DNA of 64,000 nt from Promicromonospora sukumoe 327MFSha3.1 (GTDB lineage: Bacteria; Actinomycetota; Actinomycetes; Actinomycetales; Cellulomonadaceae), in the NCBI RefSeq assembly GCF_000385135.1, contig NZ_ARQM01000003.1, forward strand, positions 1 to 64,000, given 5' to 3'. Under the pieces are notes generated by a model. The model was given only the letters and a program-made list of their open reading frames with translations. It was not told where the DNA came from and searched no databases. The translations under genes were made by a program, and so were the position numbers. Shown here in pieces: positions 1,114-63,218 of this stretch (position 1 is the first letter of the stretch; each line of letters begins with the position of its first letter).

Positions 1114-2804
1114 AGCCGGACGGCGTCCCGGAGCTGCCGGGCGTACGGGTGCTCCGCATCCTCGAACAGTGTCGACGCCGGGCCCTGCTCCACGATGCGG
1201 CCCTCCTGCATCACCGCGAGGTCGTCGCTCATGTGCAGCGCGACGCCGAGGTCGTGCGTGATCAGCAGGTACGCGAGGTCGCGCTCGCGCTGGAGCCGGT
1301 CCAGGAGGTCGAGCACCTGCGCCTGGACCGAGACGTCGAGCGCGGAGACCGGCTCGTCCAGGACCAGCACCCGGGGCTCGGCCGCGAGCGCCCGCGCGAC
1401 CGAGACGCGCTGCCGCTGCCCGCCCGACAGGTGCAGCGGACGGCGGGCAGCCAGCGCGGGGTCGAGGCCCACGGTGTCGAGCAGGTCCGCGATCTGCGTG
1501 CGCACCGGGCCGGGCCGGAGCGACCGCCCGCGGGTGATCGCGTCGGCCAGGACGGCGCCGACCGTCCAGCGCGGGTCGAACGAGCTCAGGGCGTCCTGGA
1601 ACACCGCGCCGATCAGGTGCCGGCGCGGACGCCGTCGGGCCTCCTGGAGCGGGTTCCAGGGCTCGCCCAGCAGCGTGACCTCGCCGGCGTCGGGGTGCTC
1701 GAGCCCGAGCAGGAGCCGGGCGGTGGTCGACTTGCCCGATCCGGACTCGCCGACCAGCCCCAGGGTGCGGCCCGCGCGGAGCGTGAACGACACGTCGTCG
1801 GCGGCGACGATCTCCCGCCCGCCGACATGAAACACCCGCGACACCCCCCGCGCTTCGACAAGCACCCCCTCGTCACTGCCACCAGCCCCGTCGAACGTAG
1901 GGTTGCTCGGCTCATCAGCGCTGAGAGAGCGATCATCCCTACGTTCGACGTCCGCGGCCGACGGCGGGGCGGCGGCACCACCGCCGGACAGCAGGGCTCC
2001 CCGCGCCCGCCCCGCCGGCACCGCATCCACGAGCTTGCGCGTGTACGGGTGCCGGGGGCGCTCGAACACCTCGGTCGGCGTGCCCTCCTCGACCACCACG
2101 CCGTCGGTCATCACCAGCACGCGGTCCGCGATACCCGTCACCACGGACAGGTCGTGGCTGATCAGCAGCACGGCGGTGCCCTCGTCGCGCAGCTGCCCCA
2201 GCAGCCGGAGCACCCCGGCCTGCACGGGCTGGTCGAGCGCCGTGGTGGGTTCGTCGGCGATCACCAGCCGCGGGTCGGCCGCGATGCCCGAGGCGATCAG
2301 CGCCCGCTGCCGCTGCCCGCCCGAGAGCTGGCCGGGGCGCTGACCGGCGCGCAGCTCGGCGTCGGGCAGGCCCACCCGCTCCAGGAGCGCGACGGTCCGC
2401 GCCCGGCGCGCGGCGGCGTCCAGATCGGTGTGCAGGGCGAGCGTGTCACCGATCTCCCGGCCGACCGGGCGCAACGGGTCCAGCGAGACGAGCGCATCCT
2501 GCGCGATGAGGCCGACGACGCCCCCGCGCAGCCGGCGCAGGCGCCGTCCGGACAGTGACAGCACGTCCTGCCCCGCCACCCGCAACGTCGAGGCCGAGAC
2601 CCGCGCCCCCTCGCCAGCCAGGCCGACGACGCTGCGCGCGGTCACGCTCTTGCCCGACCCGGACTCGCCGACGATCGCGACGCACTCGCCCGCGGCGACG
2701 CGCAGGCTCACGCCGTCGACCACCCGCCGTCCGCCGAACGACACGACAAGGTCCCGCACGTCCAGCACGGGCCCCTCCGAAGCCTCCCGAGTCACACCGC
2801 TCAC
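1110..2804 (-). CDS. Oligopeptide/dipeptide ABC importer, fused double ATPase (DppD-DppF type)
   Basis: A 564-residue protein carrying two complete ABC ATPase domains that power uptake by the two permeases encoded upstream. Domain 1 has GESGSGKS, LSGGQRQRAL and IADEPTTALD. Domain 2 repeats GESGSGKS, LSGGQRQRVS and LDEPVSALD. Both halves have an oligopeptide-type C-terminal extension (RHPYTRKL, EHPYARQL). The halves are joined by a low-complexity linker of about 50 residues, part of which (1892-1947) is encoded by a 56-bp palindromic repeat found elsewhere in the window. The GTG start overlaps the permease stop (GTGA), so translation is probably coupled. The stop codon lies in the CTAG where the IS element inserted, and the protein is intact. 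Confidence 0.92.
   Translation of the reverse strand: MSGVTREASEGPVLDVRDLVVSFGGRRVVDGVSLRVAAGECVAIVGESGSGKSVTARSVVGLAGEGARVSASTLRVAGQDVLSLSGRRLRRLRGGVVGLIAQDALVSLDPLRPVGREIGDTLALHTDLDAAARRARTVALLERVGLPDAELRAGQRPGQLSGGQRQRALIASGIAADPRLVIADEPTTALDQPVQAGVLRLLGQLRDEGTAVLLISHDLSVVTGIADRVLVMTDGVVVEEGTPTEVFERPRHPYTRKLVDAVPAGRARGALLSGGGAAAPPSAADVERRDDRSLSADEPSNPTFDGAGGSDEGVLVEARGVSRVFHVGGREIVAADDVSFTLRAGRTLGLVGESGSGKSTTARLLLGLEHPDAGEVTLLGEPWNPLQEARRRPRRHLIGAVFQDALSSFDPRWTVGAVLADAITRGRSLRPGPVRTQIADLLDTVGLDPALAARRPLHLSGGQRQRVSVARALAAEPRVLVLDEPVSALDVSVQAQVLDLLDRLQRERDLAYLLITHDLGVALHMSDDLAVMQEGRIVEQGPASTLFEDAEHPYARQLRDAVRL
1892..1947. repeat. 56-bp palindromic repeat, copy A (inside a gene)
   Basis: Same length and ends (CGAACGTAGGG ... 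CCCTACGTTCG) as the copies at 32220 and 49938. Including one flanking base on each side, the outer 13 bp pair perfectly (1890-1902 with 1937-1949); the inner part is degenerate. It is read as part of the interdomain linker of the ABC ATPase (around SADEPSNPTFDG). Confidence 0.85.
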
Positions 2805-19602: not shown

Positions 19603-19610
19603 CCCCCGTC

Positions 19611-19648
19611 TCAGACGCTCAGGTCACCCGGGTGACCTGAGCGTCTGA
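19611..19648. terminator. 38-bp perfect palindrome between convergent genes (family 2, copy 1)
   Basis: Centre AGGTCACCCGGGTGACCT with outer arms TCAGACGCTC and GAGCGTCTGA. It lies between the FHA gene and the convergent MFS gene, which fits a two-way terminator without a U-tract. The MFS reading frame runs through it, so the palindrome also encodes that protein's last residues (VSDAQVTRVT). A second copy with paired base changes is at 34797-34842. Confidence 0.75.
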
Positions 19649-20959
19649 CACGCCCGGGTCGGGGGTGCGGCGCAGGCGCAGCGCGACCAGCCCGGCCGCG
19701 ACCACCACGACGACGTTCGCCAGCACGAGCAGGCGGTAGTCGACGAACGCGAGCAGCCCCGCGCCGAGCGCCGTCACCACGGTGCCGGGCAGGTTGTTCA
19801 CCAGGTGCCCGGCGGCGGCGACCCGGCCCTGCAGCCGCTCGGGCGTGCGGACCTGCCGTTCGGTGACCCACGCGATGACCGCGGCCGTCACGCCGAAGCC
19901 GAGCAGGGCCTGCGCGGCCACCGCCGGGATCACCCAGCTGAACATCAGCGGCACCAGGGCGATCCCGGCGGCGAGGATCCCCAGCGCGTAGACGCGCGGC
20001 CGCCCGTAGCGCGCCATCAGCCGCGGCGTCAGCGCCCCGGCGACGAACCCGGCCACCCCCTGCAGCACGGTGAGCGGACCGAGCCAGGCCGGGGGCAGCC
20101 CCAGCCCGTCGAGCACCGCGAAGACGACGGCGTTCACCAGGCCGACCGACGCGAAGACGATCACCGCGTTCCAGGTCATGCCGCCCAGCGGCTGTGTGCC
20201 GAACAGGTGCCGGAACCCGGCCGTGACCGCCGCGAGGTACGACTCGCCCGGGTCGTCCTCGTACCGGGACTCGACGACCCGCACCAGCAGGAACACGACG
20301 GCGGCCCCCGCGAACCCGCCGATCGCCACCGCGACGAGCGGCACCACGCCGACCAGCGCGTAGACCGCGGCGCCGAGGATCGGCAGCGCCACGCGGAACA
20401 CCTGGTCGATCATGGAGAGGCGGCCGTTGGCGTGCCCCAGGGCCTCGTTCGGCAGGAGGTCCTTGAGGATGCCCGACTGGCAGGCGCCCGTCACGTACGC
20501 GACCGCCGAGTAGACCAGCGTGGACACGAAGATGACCCAGACCTGGTCCGGGCGCTGCACCCAGAACAGCGGCACCAGCCCGAGCGCGCCCACCACGTAG
20601 GCGACCACGAGCATGAGCCGGCGCGAGACCCGGTCCGCCAGGTGCCCCAGGAACGGCGAGGCGAGCGCGGGCAGGCCCAGCAGCGCGAACGTCACGCCGC
20701 CCAGCGCGGCGCTGCCGGTCAGGTCGGCGACCCAGACCGCCATGAGCAGGGTGAGCAGCGAGTCCGCCACGTTCGCGAGGGTCCAGCCCACCACAAGCGT
20801 GCGGAAGACGGGGGTCCGCAGGTGCCGCGCGGGGTCGGTCGGCTGGGGCTGCCCGACGGCGTCGGCCTGGGCCGGATCTGCCGGTCCCGGCCGCCCGACG
20901 ACGGGCGGGTCGCCCTGGGCCGCGTCGTCGCCGGCCGCCGGGGGCTTGGTGGTGGTCAT
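19619..20959 (-). CDS. MFS transporter, MFS_3 (drug/siderophore exporter-like)
   Basis: A 446-residue protein with about 12 membrane helices after a 45-residue Pro/Asp/Gly-rich N-terminus. MFS signatures include FLGHLADRVSRRLMLV in the 2-3 loop and PRLMARYGRPRVYALG in the second half. Pairing with an upstream HTH regulator suggests inducible export. ATG 20959 overlaps the regulator stop (ATGA). The C-terminus is encoded inside palindrome 19611-19648, so insertion of the palindrome may have extended the protein. Confidence 0.88.
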   Translation of the reverse strand: MTTTKPPAAGDDAAQGDPPVVGRPGPADPAQADAVGQPQPTDPARHLRTPVFRTLVVGWTLANVADSLLTLLMAVWVADLTGSAALGGVTFALLGLPALASPFLGHLADRVSRRLMLVVAYVVGALGLVPLFWVQRPDQVWVIFVSTLVYSAVAYVTGACQSGILKDLLPNEALGHANGRLSMIDQVFRVALPILGAAVYALVGVVPLVAVAIGGFAGAAVVFLLVRVVESRYEDDPGESYLAAVTAGFRHLFGTQPLGGMTWNAVIVFASVGLVNAVVFAVLDGLGLPPAWLGPLTVLQGVAGFVAGALTPRLMARYGRPRVYALGILAAGIALVPLMFSWVIPAVAAQALLGFGVTAAVIAWVTERQVRTPERLQGRVAAAGHLVNNLPGTVVTALGAGLLAFVDYRLLVLANVVVVVAAGLVALRLRRTPDPGVSDAQVTRVT

Positions 20960-27981: not shown

Positions 27982-28033
27982 CGCGCCGCTGACCCGTCCG
28001 GCCTCGGGTGGCCTGACGACTGCGCAGTTCCCT

Positions 28034-28093
28034 TTCGAGGCCTAGGTTTCTTCGCTTTGACCGGTGTCAAAGCGAAGAAACCTAGGCCTCGAA
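28034..28093. terminator. Long 28-bp stem hairpin between convergent genes
   Basis: Perfect 28-bp arms (28034-28061, 28066-28093) around a CGGT loop, with a CCTAGG core. It lies between the convergent ends of the betaine receptor and the flavin oxidoreductase, fitting a two-way terminator. The sequence is less GC-rich than its surroundings (it includes TTTCTTCGCTTTGAC) and has no relative elsewhere in the window. Confidence 0.78.
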
Positions 28094-28121
28094 GTGGTTT
28101 GCAGCCCGGATCATGGGCAGG

Positions 28122-32147: not shown

Positions 32148-32219
32148 GAGGCGTACGTGTTCTCCATCTGGGGGCTGACTGTGCGGCCCCAGTCTCGCAC
32201 GCAAAGCACCCTGACAGCG

Positions 32220-32275
32220 CGAACGTAGGGTTGGTCGCCCCATCAGACGTCATGCGGCGACCAACCCTACGTTCG
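32220..32275. repeat. 56-bp palindromic repeat, copy B
   Basis: 19-bp perfect arms (32220-32238, 32257-32275) sharing CGAACGTAGGGTTGGTCG with copies at 1892 and 49938. It lies between the 3' end of tex and the start of the TetR pair, a position that would suit a terminator for tex. Confidence 0.88.
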
Positions 32276-32304
32276 AGCACCTCGCGGGCAGCGCCCGCGG
32301 CGTG

Positions 32305-34796: not shown

Positions 34797-34842
34797 CGTG
34801 TCAGACACACAGGTCACCCGGGTGACCTGTGTGTCTGACACG
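34797..34842. repeat. 46-bp perfect palindrome (family 2, copy 2)
   Basis: Shares the core TCAGACnCnCAGGTCACC and its complement with 19611-19648. The two variable positions differ from copy 1, but on both arms together, so pairing is kept. Unlike copy 1 it lies between divergent genes (tex and the serpin), in a 224-bp intergenic region with no other clear signal. Confidence 0.85.
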
Positions 34843-38497: not shown

Positions 38498-39385
38498 ATG
38501 GACCAGAACGCGCTCACCGAGCTCCGCACCTTCTACACCTCGTTCGGCCGGCTGCCGCTGCCGGACGGCACCCACGTGACCGAGACGACGCGGGGCGGCG
38601 TCCCGACGCTGGACATCACCGTGCCGCAGGCCGGCGACGACGCCCCCGTGCTGCTCTACCTGCACGGTGGCGGCTACGTGATCGGCGACGCCGGCACGGG
38701 CGTCCCGCTGGCGGCGGCACTCGCAGCCCGTGCGGGCCTGCGCGCGGTCGCACCCGACTATCGCCTCGCCCCCGAGCACCCGTTCCCGGCGGCCGTCGAC
38801 GACGGCCTGGCTGCGTACCGGGCGCTGCTGGAGCGCACCGACGCGAGCCGCGTCGTGGTCGCGGGCGACTCCGCGGGCGGTGGCCTCGCCCTCGCCACGG
38901 TCCTGACCGCTCGCGACGCGGGGCTCCCGCTGCCGGCCGCCGTCGTCACCTTCTCCGGCTGGTTCGACCTGACGCTGTCCGGCGCGAGCCTCACCGGCAA
39001 GGAGAGCGTCGACCCGATCTTCGACGCCGCGAACATCCGCGAGTACGCCGCCACGTACCTGCCCGACGGCGCCGACCCGCGCGACCCGCTCGCGAGCCCC
39101 CTGCTCGCCGACCTGCGCGGCCTGCCGCCGCTCCTGCTCCAGGTCGGCACGCACGAGGTGCTGCTCGACGACACCACCGGCCTGGCCGCGCGCGCCGCGT
39201 CGGCGGACGTCGACGTGACCCTGGAGGTCTACGCCGGCAGCGCGCACGTGTTCCAGCACCACCACGCGACGGACCCGGTGGCGGCGCACGCCATGGACTC
39301 CGCGGCGGCATTCCTGGCGCGGCACGCCGGGCACGTCCTGCCCGGACGCGACACGGCTCAGGACAGCCGGTCCGCCCGCGTGTAG
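38498..39385 (+). CDS. Alpha/beta hydrolase, HSL/acetyl-esterase family
   Basis: A 295-residue esterase. Oxyanion-hole motif YLHGGGYV, nucleophile GDSAGGG, acid in VGTHEVLLDD and catalytic His in GSAHVFQHH. The LAPEHPFPAAVDD segment marks the hormone-sensitive-lipase family. No signal peptide. GAGGGGA precedes ATG 38498. It is divergent from the MarR gene and probably induced when the regulator binds a small aromatic or ester ligand. Its 3' end overlaps the convergent fdhD by 28 bp. Confidence 0.92.
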   Translation: MDQNALTELRTFYTSFGRLPLPDGTHVTETTRGGVPTLDITVPQAGDDAPVLLYLHGGGYVIGDAGTGVPLAAALAARAGLRAVAPDYRLAPEHPFPAAVDDGLAAYRALLERTDASRVVVAGDSAGGGLALATVLTARDAGLPLPAAVVTFSGWFDLTLSGASLTGKESVDPIFDAANIREYAATYLPDGADPRDPLASPLLADLRGLPPLLLQVGTHEVLLDDTTGLAARAASADVDVTLEVYAGSAHVFQHHHATDPVAAHAMDSAAAFLARHAGHVLPGRDTAQDSRSARV

Positions 39386-40260
39386 ACGTTCATCGAGCCG
39401 CCGCGGACGAACCCCAGCAGGGTCAGGCCGCACTCCTCGGCCAGGTCCACGGCGAGGGTCGACGGCGCCGAGATCGCGGACAGCACCGGGATCCCGGCCC
39501 GCGCGGCCTTCTGCACCAGCTCGAACGACGCCCGCCCGCTGACCTGGAGCACCGTCCCGGCAGCGGGCAGGGCGCCGTCGCGCAGCGCGGCTCCCACCAC
39601 CTTGTCGACGGCGTTGTGCCGGCCCACGTCCTCGCGGACGTACAGCGGCTCGCCGTCGGCGGTGAACAGACCCGCGGCGTGCAGGCCGCCGGTACGGTCG
39701 AAGGCGCGCTGCCGCTCCCGGAGCAGGTCGGGCAGGGCGGCGATCACGTCGGTGCGGACCGTGACGGCGTCGCGCGCGACCGGCCAGCGCAGCGCGGCCC
39801 GCACCTCCACCACGGTGTCCGACCCGCACACCCCGCACGCGCTGGTCGTCGCGAACGCGCGCTGCCGCGGGGGCTCGACGCCGGGCGCGAGCGCCACCTC
39901 GACCGTGTTGTCCTCGTCGGGGCACAGCCGCATCCCCGCGATGTCCTCGCGCGCCGTGACGGCGCCCTCGGAGACCAGCCATCCGGCGACCAGGTCGAAG
40001 TCGTCGCCGGGGGTGCGCATCGTGACGGTGAGCGTGCTTCCGGTGGGCGGTGCGCCCGGCAGGACGCCGTCCGGCAGCATCCCGCCGACCGGGACGACGC
40101 TCGCCGGGACCGCGCCGAGCGGCCGCGCCCGGCCGACCAGCGCGCCGGGTCCGACGAGCCGGACCATGAGCGGTTCCTCGACGGCGAGCGTGTCGGGGCG
40201 CGCCGCGCGAGCGCCCTCCCGGACGCGCACCACGCGCCTTCGGTCGGTGACGACTCCCAT
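39358..40260 (-). CDS. fdhD: FdhD, sulfurtransferase for formate dehydrogenase
   Basis: A 300-residue protein that passes sulfur to the molybdenum cofactor of formate dehydrogenases. The sulfur-carrying cysteine pair is in SACGVCGSDT, and other family landmarks are GWLVSEGAV, REDVGRHNAVDK and SGRASFELVQKA. It is divergent from an FdhF/YdeP-type molybdoenzyme, its likely client. Overlaps the convergent hydrolase gene by 28 bp. Confidence 0.95.
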   Translation of the reverse strand: MGVVTDRRRVVRVREGARAARPDTLAVEEPLMVRLVGPGALVGRARPLGAVPASVVPVGGMLPDGVLPGAPPTGSTLTVTMRTPGDDFDLVAGWLVSEGAVTAREDIAGMRLCPDEDNTVEVALAPGVEPPRQRAFATTSACGVCGSDTVVEVRAALRWPVARDAVTVRTDVIAALPDLLRERQRAFDRTGGLHAAGLFTADGEPLYVREDVGRHNAVDKVVGAALRDGALPAAGTVLQVSGRASFELVQKAARAGIPVLSAISAPSTLAVDLAEECGLTLLGFVRGGSMNVYTRADRLS

Positions 40261-40296
40261 CCCGCCAGTCTCGCACCGCTTCCGCCCGCTGCGGCC

Positions 40297-40444
40297 ACCG
40301 ATATGTCCACCAGTACGCACGGCCGCCCCGAGGTTTTGTTCAAGCCACGACGTTGCGACGTTTCAAGCCGGTCCCTGCGGGCAGTGGTTCGTGGTCTGAA
40401 CAGAACCTCAGGAGCGAACGGTGACTCCTGACCGATATGTCCAC
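40297..40444. mobile_element. Possible MITE-like insert in the fdhD-fdhF promoter region
   Basis: ACCGATATGTCCAC occurs as a perfect 14-bp direct repeat (40297-40310, 40431-40444) flanking 120 bp. Inside is an imperfect inverted repeat with 21-bp arms (40330-40350, 40389-40409; 18 of 21 pair), centred within 1 bp of the midpoint of the direct repeats. That symmetry fits a small non-coding mobile element with a target duplication. Alternatively the direct repeats are two binding sites, one about 40 bp from each divergent gene. Confidence 0.45.
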
Positions 40445-40484
40445 AGCCTCCACAGGAGGTTGACTCCGGCGTAGGGTCAGGAGG

Positions 40485-42809
<2,325 letters not shown>

Positions 42810-42823
42810 CGCCCGGACGACGG

Positions 42824-42861
42824 CGGCCGTGGTCACCTCTCGCGAGAGGTGACCACGGCCG
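42824..42861. terminator. 38-bp perfect palindrome between convergent genes
   Basis: CGGCCGTGGTCACCTCTCG followed by its complement, with no spacer. It lies between the molybdoenzyme and symporter 3' ends and is probably a two-way terminator. Confidence 0.75.
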
Positions 42862-42901
42862 TCCTCGGGCAGCGGGCAGGCCGCAGCTCAGGGGTGGAGC
42901 G

Positions 42902-48183: not shown

Positions 48184-48199
48184 GTTGCGTATACGCAAC
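48184..48199. promoter_or_regulatory. 16-bp perfect palindrome
   Basis: GTTGCGTATACGCAAC begins three bases after the hydrolase stop. Less GC-rich than its surroundings. Either a protein-binding site or a short terminator stem. The rest of 48200-48337 is the AT-richer upstream region of the AbiE pair. Confidence 0.5.
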
Positions 48200-48290
48200 A
48201 AGCGGCGCCATCGAGCGCCAAGTAGCTGTAAATGCGCCACCATCGTCGCCATGAGAACAGCCAGTAGCACCACCCCGATGTCAGCGCTAT

Positions 48291-48324
48291 GTCAAAATAC
48301 TCATGATTCCGTTAGCTTTTTGAC
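48291..48324. promoter_or_regulatory. Inverted repeat in the AbiE promoter region
   Basis: GTCAAAA (48291-48297) and TTTTGAC (48318-48324) frame a relatively AT-rich stretch just before the antitoxin start. AbiEi antitoxins are known to repress their own promoter by binding inverted repeats. Confidence 0.5.
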
Positions 48325-48337
48325 GTCGAGGTGGGAC

Positions 48338-48889
48338 ATGACGGCACAGGATCTGCTGTGGCAGGTAGCCCTCGACCAACATGGCCTCATCACACTGTCC
48401 GACGCCCGAGGTCTCGGGATCAGCGAGGACGCCGTGATGATGCTCGCCCAACGAGGAAAGCTCGAACGGGCCGCCACCGCGGTCTACCGGTTTCCCCGGT
48501 TCCCGGCCGGCCCGAACGAGCCCTACATGCTCGCGGTGCTCTGGACGGGCGAGCCTCGGGCGTGCCTGAGCCACGACACAGCGCTGGCCGCGTACGACGT
48601 ATCAGACATCAACCCAGGGCGAGTCCACCTCACCGTGCCGCGCGGACGGCGCATCCGCAGGTCAGGAGGCGACCTGTACACCGTCCACCATGAAGACCTG
48701 GCCGATGACGAGACCGGTTGGTGGGACGAGATTCCGACCGTCACGCTCCCGACCGCCATCCGGCAGTGCATCGACAGCGGTGTTCCGACGTATCTGATCC
48801 GACAGGCGCTCGAGCGGGCCCCAGAGGCCGGGCGGCTCGCCGCAGCTGACGCGGAGGCGCTGACCGCGCGTCTGGACCGGCGAGCGTGA
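48338..48889 (+). CDS. AbiEi-type antitoxin (type IV toxin-antitoxin)
   Basis: A 183-residue protein with an N-terminal winged helix (LVALDQHGLITLSDARGLGISEDAVMMLAQRGKLERAATAVYRF) and a C-terminal AbiEi-like part (HDTALAAYDVSDINPGRVHLTVP). It neutralises the partner nucleotidyltransferase without direct binding and represses the operon. GAGGTGGG precedes ATG 48338. Its stop overlaps the toxin GTG. Confidence 0.85.
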   Translation: MTAQDLLWQVALDQHGLITLSDARGLGISEDAVMMLAQRGKLERAATAVYRFPRFPAGPNEPYMLAVLWTGEPRACLSHDTALAAYDVSDINPGRVHLTVPRGRRIRRSGGDLYTVHHEDLADDETGWWDEIPTVTLPTAIRQCIDSGVPTYLIRQALERAPEAGRLAAADAEALTARLDRRA

Positions 48890-49824
48890 CGGCCGACGAC
48901 CCCATCGCGCTGATCGGTTCGCTGCCGGGCCGCGACAAGGAGCCGACGAACGCACGGGTCCTGGACTCCTGGGTCACCGCCGCCCACGACAGGGTCGAGC
49001 TCGACAGCGGTCGGCTGGGCTGGCTGGTGGCGTCCACGGTGGTGGTCGCAGCGCTGCAGCGCGCGGTCGGCTCGTCGTCGGAACCGAGGTTCTTGCTCAA
49101 GGGCGGGACCTACCTTCAGCACCGCCTCGGCCGCTCGGCACGCCCCACGAAGGACGTCGACGGGATCATCAACGGTGACATCGAGCAGTTCGTCCACGAC
49201 CTCGACACCATCCTCGCTGAGCCCTGGGGGCCGCTCACGCTGGAACGCGGCCCGGTCGAGACGATCGAGACGCCGGCCCGCGTGACCAGGCCGCGCCGGC
49301 TCGACGTCCGGCTCGGCCTCCGCGGCAAGGTCTGGCGACGGATTCAGGTCGAGATCGCTCCCGAGGAAGGCTCGGCGGCCCGGGACAGCGACGTGCTCAC
49401 GGCACCCTCGCTCGAGCATTTCGGTCTGCCGTCACCGGATCGTCTGCTGGGTATTGCACTGCGCTATCAGATCGCGCAGAAGCTGCATGCGTGCACAGAT
49501 CCCCACCAGCCGCCTGCGCACAGGAACGACCGAGCACGCGACGTCGTCGACCTGCTCTCGCTCCGTGGACTGGCTGAGCTCGAGAACGCGGCAACGGCTC
49601 ACGACCTGCGAGCTGCCTGTGTCGACGTCTTCGGCGCACGCGCGGACGACGCTCGACGCCTTGGGCGCATGCCGCGCGAATGGCCGTGCACGGTCGTTCC
49701 GTACCCGCACTGGGGACCGGACTTCGCTGCGGCAGCGGAGGCGGCCGGTCGTCCGCACCTGACGCTCGACGAGGCCGTCCGGGAACTCAACACCTGGATC
49801 ATGTTCATCGACGGCGCCGGCTGA
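48886..49824 (+). CDS. AbiEii-type nucleotidyltransferase toxin
   Basis: A 312-residue protein with the AbiEii nucleotidyltransferase pattern: FLLKGGTYLQHRLGRSARPTKDVDGII (the Gly-Gly and Asp-x-Asp catalytic elements), RLDVRLGLRGKVWRRIQVEI, and a late Lys/Arg region KLHACTDPHQPPAHRNDRARDVVDLL. Such enzymes stop growth by adding nucleotides to tRNA and abort phage infection. GTG 48886 overlaps the antitoxin stop. The pair and its upstream region look acquired. Confidence 0.88.
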   Translation: MTADDPIALIGSLPGRDKEPTNARVLDSWVTAAHDRVELDSGRLGWLVASTVVVAALQRAVGSSSEPRFLLKGGTYLQHRLGRSARPTKDVDGIINGDIEQFVHDLDTILAEPWGPLTLERGPVETIETPARVTRPRRLDVRLGLRGKVWRRIQVEIAPEEGSAARDSDVLTAPSLEHFGLPSPDRLLGIALRYQIAQKLHACTDPHQPPAHRNDRARDVVDLLSLRGLAELENAATAHDLRAACVDVFGARADDARRLGRMPREWPCTVVPYPHWGPDFAAAAEAAGRPHLTLDEAVRELNTWIMFIDGAG

Positions 49825-49874: not shown

Positions 49875-49934
49875 CAGCCCCAGGCCCAGCCCCAGCCCCA
49901 GCCCCAGCCCCAGCCCCAGGCCCAGGCTCAAGCC
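49875..49934. repeat. (CAGCCC)10 hexamer tandem repeat
   Basis: Ten consecutive 6-bp units, seven of them close to or exactly CAGCCC and the rest CAGGCC, CAGGCT and CAAGCC. Three bases separate it from palindrome copy C. Not in any convincing gene; likely slippage-prone. Confidence 0.85.
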
Positions 49935-49937
49935 CGT

Positions 49938-49993
49938 CGAACGTAGGGTTGGTCGGCGCATGAGCGCTCATGCGCCGACCAACCCTACGTTCG
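49938..49993. repeat. 56-bp palindromic repeat, copy C (perfect)
   Basis: Both 28-base halves are exact complements with no loop (left half starts CGAACGTAGGGTTGGTCG). Lies between the convergent ends of the AbiEii and HupE-like genes, where it could terminate both. Confidence 0.92.
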
Positions 49994-50004
49994 GCGGATC
50001 CCGC

Positions 50005-55282: not shown

Positions 55283-55289
55283 CAGGTTG

Positions 55290-55362
<73 letters not shown>

Positions 55363-55480: not shown

Positions 55481-55556
<76 letters not shown>

Positions 55557-63135: not shown

Positions 63136-63149
63136 GCGCTCCCCGCGTC

Positions 63150-63202
63150 GACCATTCACCTGCTGCCAGGTCCGGCGTCCGGCTGGCAGCAGGTGCATGG
63201 TC
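63150..63202. terminator. Two-way terminator hairpin
   Basis: A 20-bp stem with one mismatch (63150-63169 with 63183-63202, GACCATtCACCTGCTGCCAG) around a 13-nt loop, between the DUF3054 and RdgB 3' ends. Confidence 0.8.
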
Positions 63203-63218
63203 GGTCGATCTGGGGCAG

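Follow-up and report, generated by a model that had tools for sequence, protein, structure and literature searches.

A 120-bp palindromic insertion beside a molybdoenzyme gene of Promicromonospora sukumoe and its possible relation to an AbiEi-like/Vsr-like nuclease

RAYT transposases are regarded as the enzymes that move REPINs (PMC3733652, PMC2817692). RAYT genes are described as always flanked by two REPs (PMC2817692) and REP doublets as the mobile unit (PMC3116915). A different group of enzymes, the EDxHD homing endonuclease family, is described in PMC3943268. Here we analyzed a repeat block between fdhD and a molybdoenzyme gene of Promicromonospora sukumoe 327MFSha3.1, within a 64,000-nucleotide stretch of contig NZ_ARQM01000003.1 (hereafter the window), and compared it with these and other systems. 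The family to which the block belongs recalls REP/REPIN-RAYT in that palindromes lie on both sides of an enzyme gene, occur in many scattered copies and form several enzyme-palindrome pairs per genome (PMC2817692, PMC3116915). We lean, by a modest degree, towards reading the 120-bp block as a solo copy of a REPIN-like mobile hairpin that would be moved by an unrelated AbiEi-like/Vsr-like nuclease.

The block contains a perfect 14-bp direct repeat, ACCGATATGTCCAC, whose two identical copies enclose 120 bp, and within these an imperfect inverted repeat with arms of 24 nt that are 83% complementary and 38 nt apart (Table 1). The centers of the direct repeat (40370.5) and of the inverted repeat (40369.5) are 1 bp apart. 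From the 14-mer to the neighboring start codon there are 36 bp on the fdhD side (probable ATG at 40260-40258, minus strand, picked by eye) and 40 bp on the molybdoenzyme side (GTG at 40485). The geometry given in the initial annotation is borne out by these coordinates, including the shared center and the roughly 40 bp to each divergent start. Perfect 14-bp direct repeats 40-250 bp apart occur at four other places in the window, and such a repeat is not rare by itself. Folded as single-stranded DNA, the 120 bp have an unexceptional energy (z -1.44, with 20 of 200 shuffles folding equally well), and the case for a hairpin element therefore rests on recurrence of the sequence rather than on energy. 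A search of positions 39000-42000 against Rfam returned no family at E ≤ 1. The longest nearby direct repeat is explained by tandem tRNA-Lys(ctt) genes on the minus strand (55289-55362 and 55481-55556). A near-perfect 50-bp palindrome (42818-42867) lies just past the molybdoenzyme gene, towards a sodium:solute symporter gene.

Table 1. Coordinates of the repeat block, its neighboring genes and the further solo hairpins in the window.
Feature	Position	Strand	Remark
Left copy of the 14-bp target duplication	40297..40310	+	15 bp with the leading G in P. kroppenstedtii
Right copy of the duplication, at the position of the ancestral copy	40431..40444	+	Single recognisable copy in 5/11 relatives
Inserted unit, 120 bp	40311..40430		Here and in P. 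kroppenstedtii; not at the locus in 11/11 other same-genus genomes
Conserved hairpin core of the dispersed family	40327..40412	+	12 places in this genome, 16 in P. kroppenstedtii
Inverted repeat, left arm	40327..40350	+	24 nt
Inverted repeat, right arm	40389..40412	+	24 nt
fdhD (FdhD/NarQ family), left neighbor	39358..40260	-	FdhD-NarQ match E 2e-67; start codon picked by eye
Molybdopterin oxidoreductase gene, right neighbor	40485..42809	+	Family match E 3e-23
Solo hairpin, family bracketing nuclease L129 (G000:C11:799017)	28030..28097		Match to bracket hairpin
Solo hairpin, family bracketing nuclease L130 (G000:C3:128459)	49934..49997		Match to bracket hairpin
Solo hairpin, L130 family	32217..32278		Match to bracket hairpin
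Degenerate solo	1889..1950		L141 (P. kroppenstedtii relative of L130), 73% over 86 bp, E 2e-6
Solo hairpin, family bracketing nuclease L131 of P. kroppenstedtii	63149..63203		Match to bracket hairpin

The history of the block was read from the corresponding spacer in other Promicromonospora genomes. In P. kroppenstedtii (G010) the spacer is 92% identical over 226 bp, insert included, and the core is missing at this locus in all 11 of the other genomes of the genus that were compared. Five of these 11 relatives (G003, G005, G006, G007 and G011) keep one recognisable copy of the 14-mer, GACCGAT(A/T)TGTC..; among the remaining six the copy has diverged in three, and none is visible in three. For example, the spacer of G007 reads ..CGC-GACCGATTTGTCCAC-AGCCTCC.. 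at the place occupied in the window by repeat, insert and repeat. Since the empty sites in relatives carry a single 14-mer, the 14-mer is the older sequence, located upstream of the molybdoenzyme gene and duplicated by the 120-bp insertion. It is the empty site, and not the direct repeat alone, that is decisive here. Judged from the aligned spacers, the block is evidently an insertion with duplication of a 14-bp target (15 bp with the G kept in P. kroppenstedtii), in a lineage to which both this species and P. kroppenstedtii belong.

Flanking direct repeats were scored at 24 of the 28 known core-family copies, four P. kroppenstedtii copies being left out, and compared with a null of mismatched flanks (300 draws; mean 7.5, 95% point 9, maximum 13). 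The window site and the matching P. kroppenstedtii site scored best, at 14-15. None of the other 22 copies examined exceeded the null maximum of 13 in this scoring; the best of them, L022, scored 10, above the 95% point and below the maximum. No flanking direct repeat longer than 8 nt was found at 20 solos of two high-copy families. Among the copies examined, clear target duplication is confined to the insertion in the window and the matching one in P. kroppenstedtii, which together represent a single insertion event.

Using a consensus query, we located the core at 12 distinct places in this genome (G000) and 16 in P. kroppenstedtii; the query gave 15 and 19 rows, three in each genome being the same hairpin read backwards. 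The other 57 of the 59 genomes searched gave no match to the core among the best 13 candidates scored per genome, five of them matching the flanks only. The conserved portion of the family is 86 bp, and some copies reach about 246 bp with additional outer complementary arms. The window insert is a shortened member of the family, yet it holds the complete conserved core and both arms. Six other core sites of this genome were compared with relatives: five were recovered in P. kroppenstedtii, all of them filled. At four sites filled in P. kroppenstedtii (L088, L089, L091 and L093) the core is missing in G006 and/or G007, and L092 is occupied in these two genomes by some 1.4-1.5 kb of other sequence. 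No matching region was recovered in a relative for L087. The genome search and the empty-site comparison had both been suggested in the initial annotation; the core is neither kept at the fdhD locus in all relatives nor confined to it, the combination that would have argued against a MITE.

Two copies of the core in this genome (C15:91358 and C15:92477) point the same way at a distance of 1.1 kb, with one gene between them, and two P. kroppenstedtii copies (C149) enclose the same type of gene at the same spacing and likewise in one orientation. In this genome, the bracketed gene sits between maltokinase-like and glgB-like genes (neighbors named by eye). Its 317-aa product matches AbiEi_4 (residues 3-46, slightly below Pfam's threshold) and, weakly and also below the threshold, REase_MTES_1575 and DUF559 between residues 233 and 301. 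Only 6 of 20 relatives match MTES_1575 at E ≤ 0.01, and NCBIfam gave no family for four of the nucleases. By profile, the N-terminal ~190 residues match AbiEi. An AlphaFold model of the protein (pLDDT 80.3, pTM 0.80, with low confidence at residues 253-274) was used in a fold comparison that is informative only for AbiEi-, nucleotidyltransferase- and Vsr/EDxHD-like chains, other folds being outside its reach. Residues 1-193 of the model align with AbiEi 6y8q (Z 11.3); for residues 197-306 the match is to the I-Bth0305I catalytic domain (3r3p; Z 7.7, 96 residues, 4.5 Å). The nuclease-domain model also aligns with 3hrl (Z 7.3); the values for 3r3p and 3hrl, both under 8, lie in a range (Z 7-8) that can reflect a common arrangement. 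Invariant residues across 20 nucleases include S198, E201, R205, Q219, R232, D234, E248, D250, H255, D264, R267 and N269. Among them is a conserved acidic/His set of active-site type (E201, R232-x-D234, E248-x-D250, H255, D264 and R267-x-N269), the named residues of which we take to be catalytic. The protein consists of an AbiEi-like winged-helix part joined to a predicted C-terminal Vsr/EDxHD-like nuclease domain and is a putative nuclease.

Among the 59 genomes, a nuclease of this type occurs elsewhere only in P. kroppenstedtii (86% identical), the next best match being 51%. This nuclease and the core repeat share the same distribution, being found in these two genomes only (for the core, among the best 13 candidates per genome). 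More distant relatives of the nuclease are widespread, with members of the family in 39 of the 59 genomes. Near the P. kroppenstedtii nuclease locus on C149, a 98-bp tandem duplication with 97% identity was observed (L086:8716-8906), and it has no counterpart in a self-comparison of the matching stretch of this genome (L085).

The bracketing of nuclease genes was examined more broadly by looking for a repeat common to the 500 bp upstream and the 500 bp downstream of each gene. A set of 48 loci was assembled from the best locus of 30 genomes, ten other matches from G000 and P. kroppenstedtii, and eight hand-chosen loci. A bracket repeat was found in 39/48 loci at E ≤ 1e-6 (32 at 1e-10), and 37 loci match on both strands, meaning that the repeat is itself palindromic; nine loci failed at E ≤ 1e-6. 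The corresponding controls gave 0/30 for FdhD loci and 0/120 for random 930-bp stretches of this genome (4/120 at 1e-4). A second, overlapping set comprised 80 loci from named genomes, many of them the same genes. Here 54 passed at E ≤ 1e-6, 43 at 1e-10 and 51 on both strands; among 213 shifted controls taken within these loci, the respective numbers were 4, 0 and 2. The 26 failures at E ≤ 1e-6 in the 80-locus set include L211 and L230, which have less than 200 bp of upstream sequence and were scored as failures. Passing loci are found in genera that include Promicromonospora, Antribacter, Myceligenerans, Cellulomonas, Oerskovia and Isoptericola, and further in Cellulosimicrobium, Ruania, Serinibacter, Catellatospora, Hamadaea and Nocardiopsis. 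Within Nocardiopsis only N. terrae passes; the other five Nocardiopsis loci fail, as do the Occultella loci. Most of the repeats detected measure about 55-130 bp, and in the sequences inspected the bracket hairpins are wholly different between nuclease subfamilies and alike within them. Six enzyme-hairpin pairs are present in this genome, one of them (L127) at E 1.7e-6. Based on these comparisons, a layout of a putative nuclease gene between two subfamily-specific palindromes, with solos elsewhere, evidently recurs in other actinomycetes. At three failing loci (L106, L108 and L111) bracketing repeats lie farther out on the downstream side, possibly enclosing an additional gene. Two nuclease loci of other families carry tandem repeats: at L119 the copies recur every 52 bp or a multiple of it to either side of the gene, and at L122 they are spaced 103 bp apart.

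Solo hairpins were sought with the hairpins that bracket six further nucleases, five from this genome and one from P. kroppenstedtii. Counting both strands and scoring at most the best 40 candidates per genome, we obtained at least 86 rows in G000, 83 in G010, 84 in G007, 105 in G006 and 51 in G001, as well as 2 in G005, which are the bracket of that genome's own single full-length nuclease. Nearly all rows inspected come from two families with near-invariant arms of ~30 nt and a variable loop. Eight solo sites were queried and four aligned, with the solo present in one species and missing in another. The window itself holds five further solos from three nuclease-bracketing families (Table 1). 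In G001 (one contig, 99% complete), four distinct places examined among the hairpin rows are all of the L129 type, and no full-length nuclease of the family was found, only two weak nuclease-like matches. Solos can therefore persist after the enzyme is lost, or else hinge on another factor.

Solos are also found outside the genus. Six genomes of other genera were searched with a mix of six hairpins, and the 150 rows listed match essentially each genome's own hairpin segment. Distinct places listed number 25 in Catellatospora bangladeshensis, 34 in Oerskovia turbata, 40 in Nocardiopsis terrae, 7 in Cellulosimicrobium arenosum, 3 in Ruania albidiflava and 2 in Cellulomonas terrae. These counts include copies adjacent to the nuclease gene; without them, C. 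arenosum has 5, R. albidiflava 1 and Cellulomonas terrae 0. Among the matches listed, own-hairpin solos away from the nuclease gene occur in five of the six genomes. Both places listed for Cellulomonas terrae (G064) adjoin the nuclease gene, and few places are listed for G062 and G063.

Two other features of the window are noted here. An AbiE-like pair on the plus strand (48185-49824) consists of an AbiEi-like ORF, with a weak nuclease-profile match (E 8e-4), followed by a probable AbiEii nucleotidyltransferase ORF (48886-49824; named by eye), and an L130-family solo hairpin lies about 110 bp downstream of the pair. Two closely similar, near-perfect 46-bp palindromes (19607-19652 and 34797-34842), about 15 kb apart, were unmatched by the bracket-hairpin queries and perhaps belong to another dispersed family.

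We compared hairpin and protein divergence among 79 distinct bracketed nucleases. Hairpins matched in 0/2698 pairs below 50% protein identity, 6/287 at 50-60%, 2/47 at 60-70%, 30/37 at 70-85% and 12/12 above 85%. As a control at 70-85% identity, outer 80-bp flanks matched in 23/37 pairs and the hairpin-to-gene spacer in 7/37. Much of the hairpin/protein co-divergence is vertical, with orthologous flanks co-diverging too, and its value as proof of specificity is weakened by the match of the outer flanks. Among non-syntenic pairs, defined as having no common flank of at least 100 bp within 700 bp, hairpins matched in 8/8 at ≥70% protein identity and 0/2689 below 50%. The eight matches indicate that nuclease and hairpin keep together at different places.

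How far does this resemble known systems? Like RAYT genes, the enzyme gene here is flanked by two palindromes at most of the loci scored in both sets, and many scattered copies are seen for the core family and several others, though not for G064. The two high-copy solo families also share with REPINs their near-invariant arms and variable loop. However, the RAYT enzyme (TnpA-REP, Y1 HUH) is different from the AbiEi-like and Vsr/EDxHD-like protein found here: PF01797, the RAYT domain, was found in none of 19 genomes (0/13 Promicromonospora and 0/6 others) by a search that detected it in 5 of 14 known genomes used as a control. The repeats also differ in being mostly about 55-130 bp, with one copy carrying a 14-bp target duplication. 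In the sequences inspected, no GTAG (or CGTC) tag was seen by eye at repeat ends. Since the defining enzyme is missing, we do not file the family under REP/REPIN-RAYT despite the similar layout. CGTC-tagged REPs are likewise dispersed palindromic repeats apparently without a dedicated transposase, but the excerpted text of PMC3733652 names no nuclease partner and does not mention Actinobacteria.

The two halves of the protein point to other relatives. The predicted fold of its C-terminal domain resembles that of EDxHD homing endonucleases (I-Bth0305I), but the gene lies between palindromes and its putative DNA-binding part is AbiEi-like. That part resembles AbiE type IV toxin-antitoxins by profile and fold, whereas here it is joined to a nuclease domain, and no AbiEii toxin gene is apparent by eye beside it at the C15 locus. 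No DUF559, AbiEi or MTES_1575 protein tied to flanking or dispersed hairpins was found among the matches listed in the open-licence PMC literature. As for bacterial MITEs, the block is short and non-coding, with inverted repeats and a target duplication, and the suggestion in the initial annotation that it is a MITE with target duplication holds to the extent that empty sites and a dispersed core mark it as a mobile miniature element. It is not a textbook MITE, however. The inverted arms are set 16-18 bp in from the ends of the 120-bp insert rather than being terminal, the duplication is long, and the sole gene-bracketing pair found for the core family encloses the AbiEi-like/Vsr-like nuclease and not a known (DDE) transposase.

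We infer from these sequence associations that the nuclease may be the mover of the hairpins. In such a mechanism, the AbiEi-like part would bind the hairpin of its own subfamily, and the nuclease would make a staggered cut in the hairpin donor DNA or in the target. A hairpin copy would then be joined in at the break, and fill-in of the overhangs would yield the target duplication. The bracketed gene would mark the source, and the solos would be non-autonomous copies derived from it, a relation that would parallel that of RAYT to REPINs with an unrelated enzyme.

Other explanations were weighed against this one. The hairpins could be binding sites of the AbiEi domain, either operators or chromosome-organising sites, with the flanking copies autoregulating the nuclease gene and spread occurring by other means. 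AbiEi antitoxins bind inverted repeats at their own promoter (PMC7319586, excerpt), the N-terminal part of the nuclease matches AbiEi, and G001 has solos without a full-length nuclease, all of which would fit. But binding sites of this kind predict neither a second copy just downstream of the gene nor an invading, target-duplicating copy or the turnover of solos from species to species, and we consider this explanation rather unlikely. Even lower on our scale is the regulatory pair offered in the initial annotation as an alternative, in which both 14-mers would act as operators, serving fdhD and the divergently oriented molybdoenzyme gene. A single 14-mer-like copy does lie upstream of the molybdoenzyme gene in 5/11 relatives, but the second 14-mer occurs only together with the insertion, with which it came, and the 14-mers, being direct repeats, are oriented oppositely with respect to the two divergent genes; this alternative is extremely improbable. 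The original 14-mer lies in a stretch kept upstream of the molybdoenzyme gene in some relatives, and the duplicate may matter by accident.

The remaining two explanations concern how the hairpin moved, and both seem doubtful to a similar, considerable degree. An ordinary MITE of a DDE insertion sequence would make the ~246-bp members with outer complementary ends (CTAGTGCT..GTCGC) the mobile form, the link to the nuclease being incidental. Several copies have outer complementary arms ending near CTAG/TAG, and the end motif of the longer members was matched at six copies; across whole genomes, though, this motif is not commoner than a reversed control (22 vs 37 sites in G000, 19 vs 39 in G010), and no transposase gene with such ends was seen among the end-motif neighborhoods inspected. 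The window copy, moreover, has no outer arms and carries the 14-bp duplication, and the bracketing of sister nucleases by unrelated hairpins would be left unexplained. Alternatively, the insert could be filler DNA, a hairpin fragment captured by end joining at a staggered double-strand break, with a one-off 14-bp duplication and no transposition. This would agree with the duplication being seen at only this one insertion among the copies examined and with the insert being a shortened family member, but the family is present or absent at other sites too, and the insert retains the complete conserved core with both arms.

The reading we prefer, in which the AbiEi-like/Vsr-like nuclease moves the hairpins, extends to a wider proposal that we regard as evenly balanced: a separate class of mobile element, in which palindromes of ~55-130 bp would be replicated in actinomycetes by a dedicated nuclease of this kind whose gene lies between two of them, with its own hairpin for each subfamily. 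If true, this class would be a counterpart of RAYT-REPIN built on an unrelated enzyme, and its ancestry would be shared with type IV antitoxins. A second, non-homologous enzyme with the same layout would mean that the arrangement of a solitary nuclease plus a population of hairpins arose more than once. It would also assign a job to a protein family with such a broad presence in the genomes searched, and the six enzyme-hairpin pairs of this genome would provide the material for testing it.
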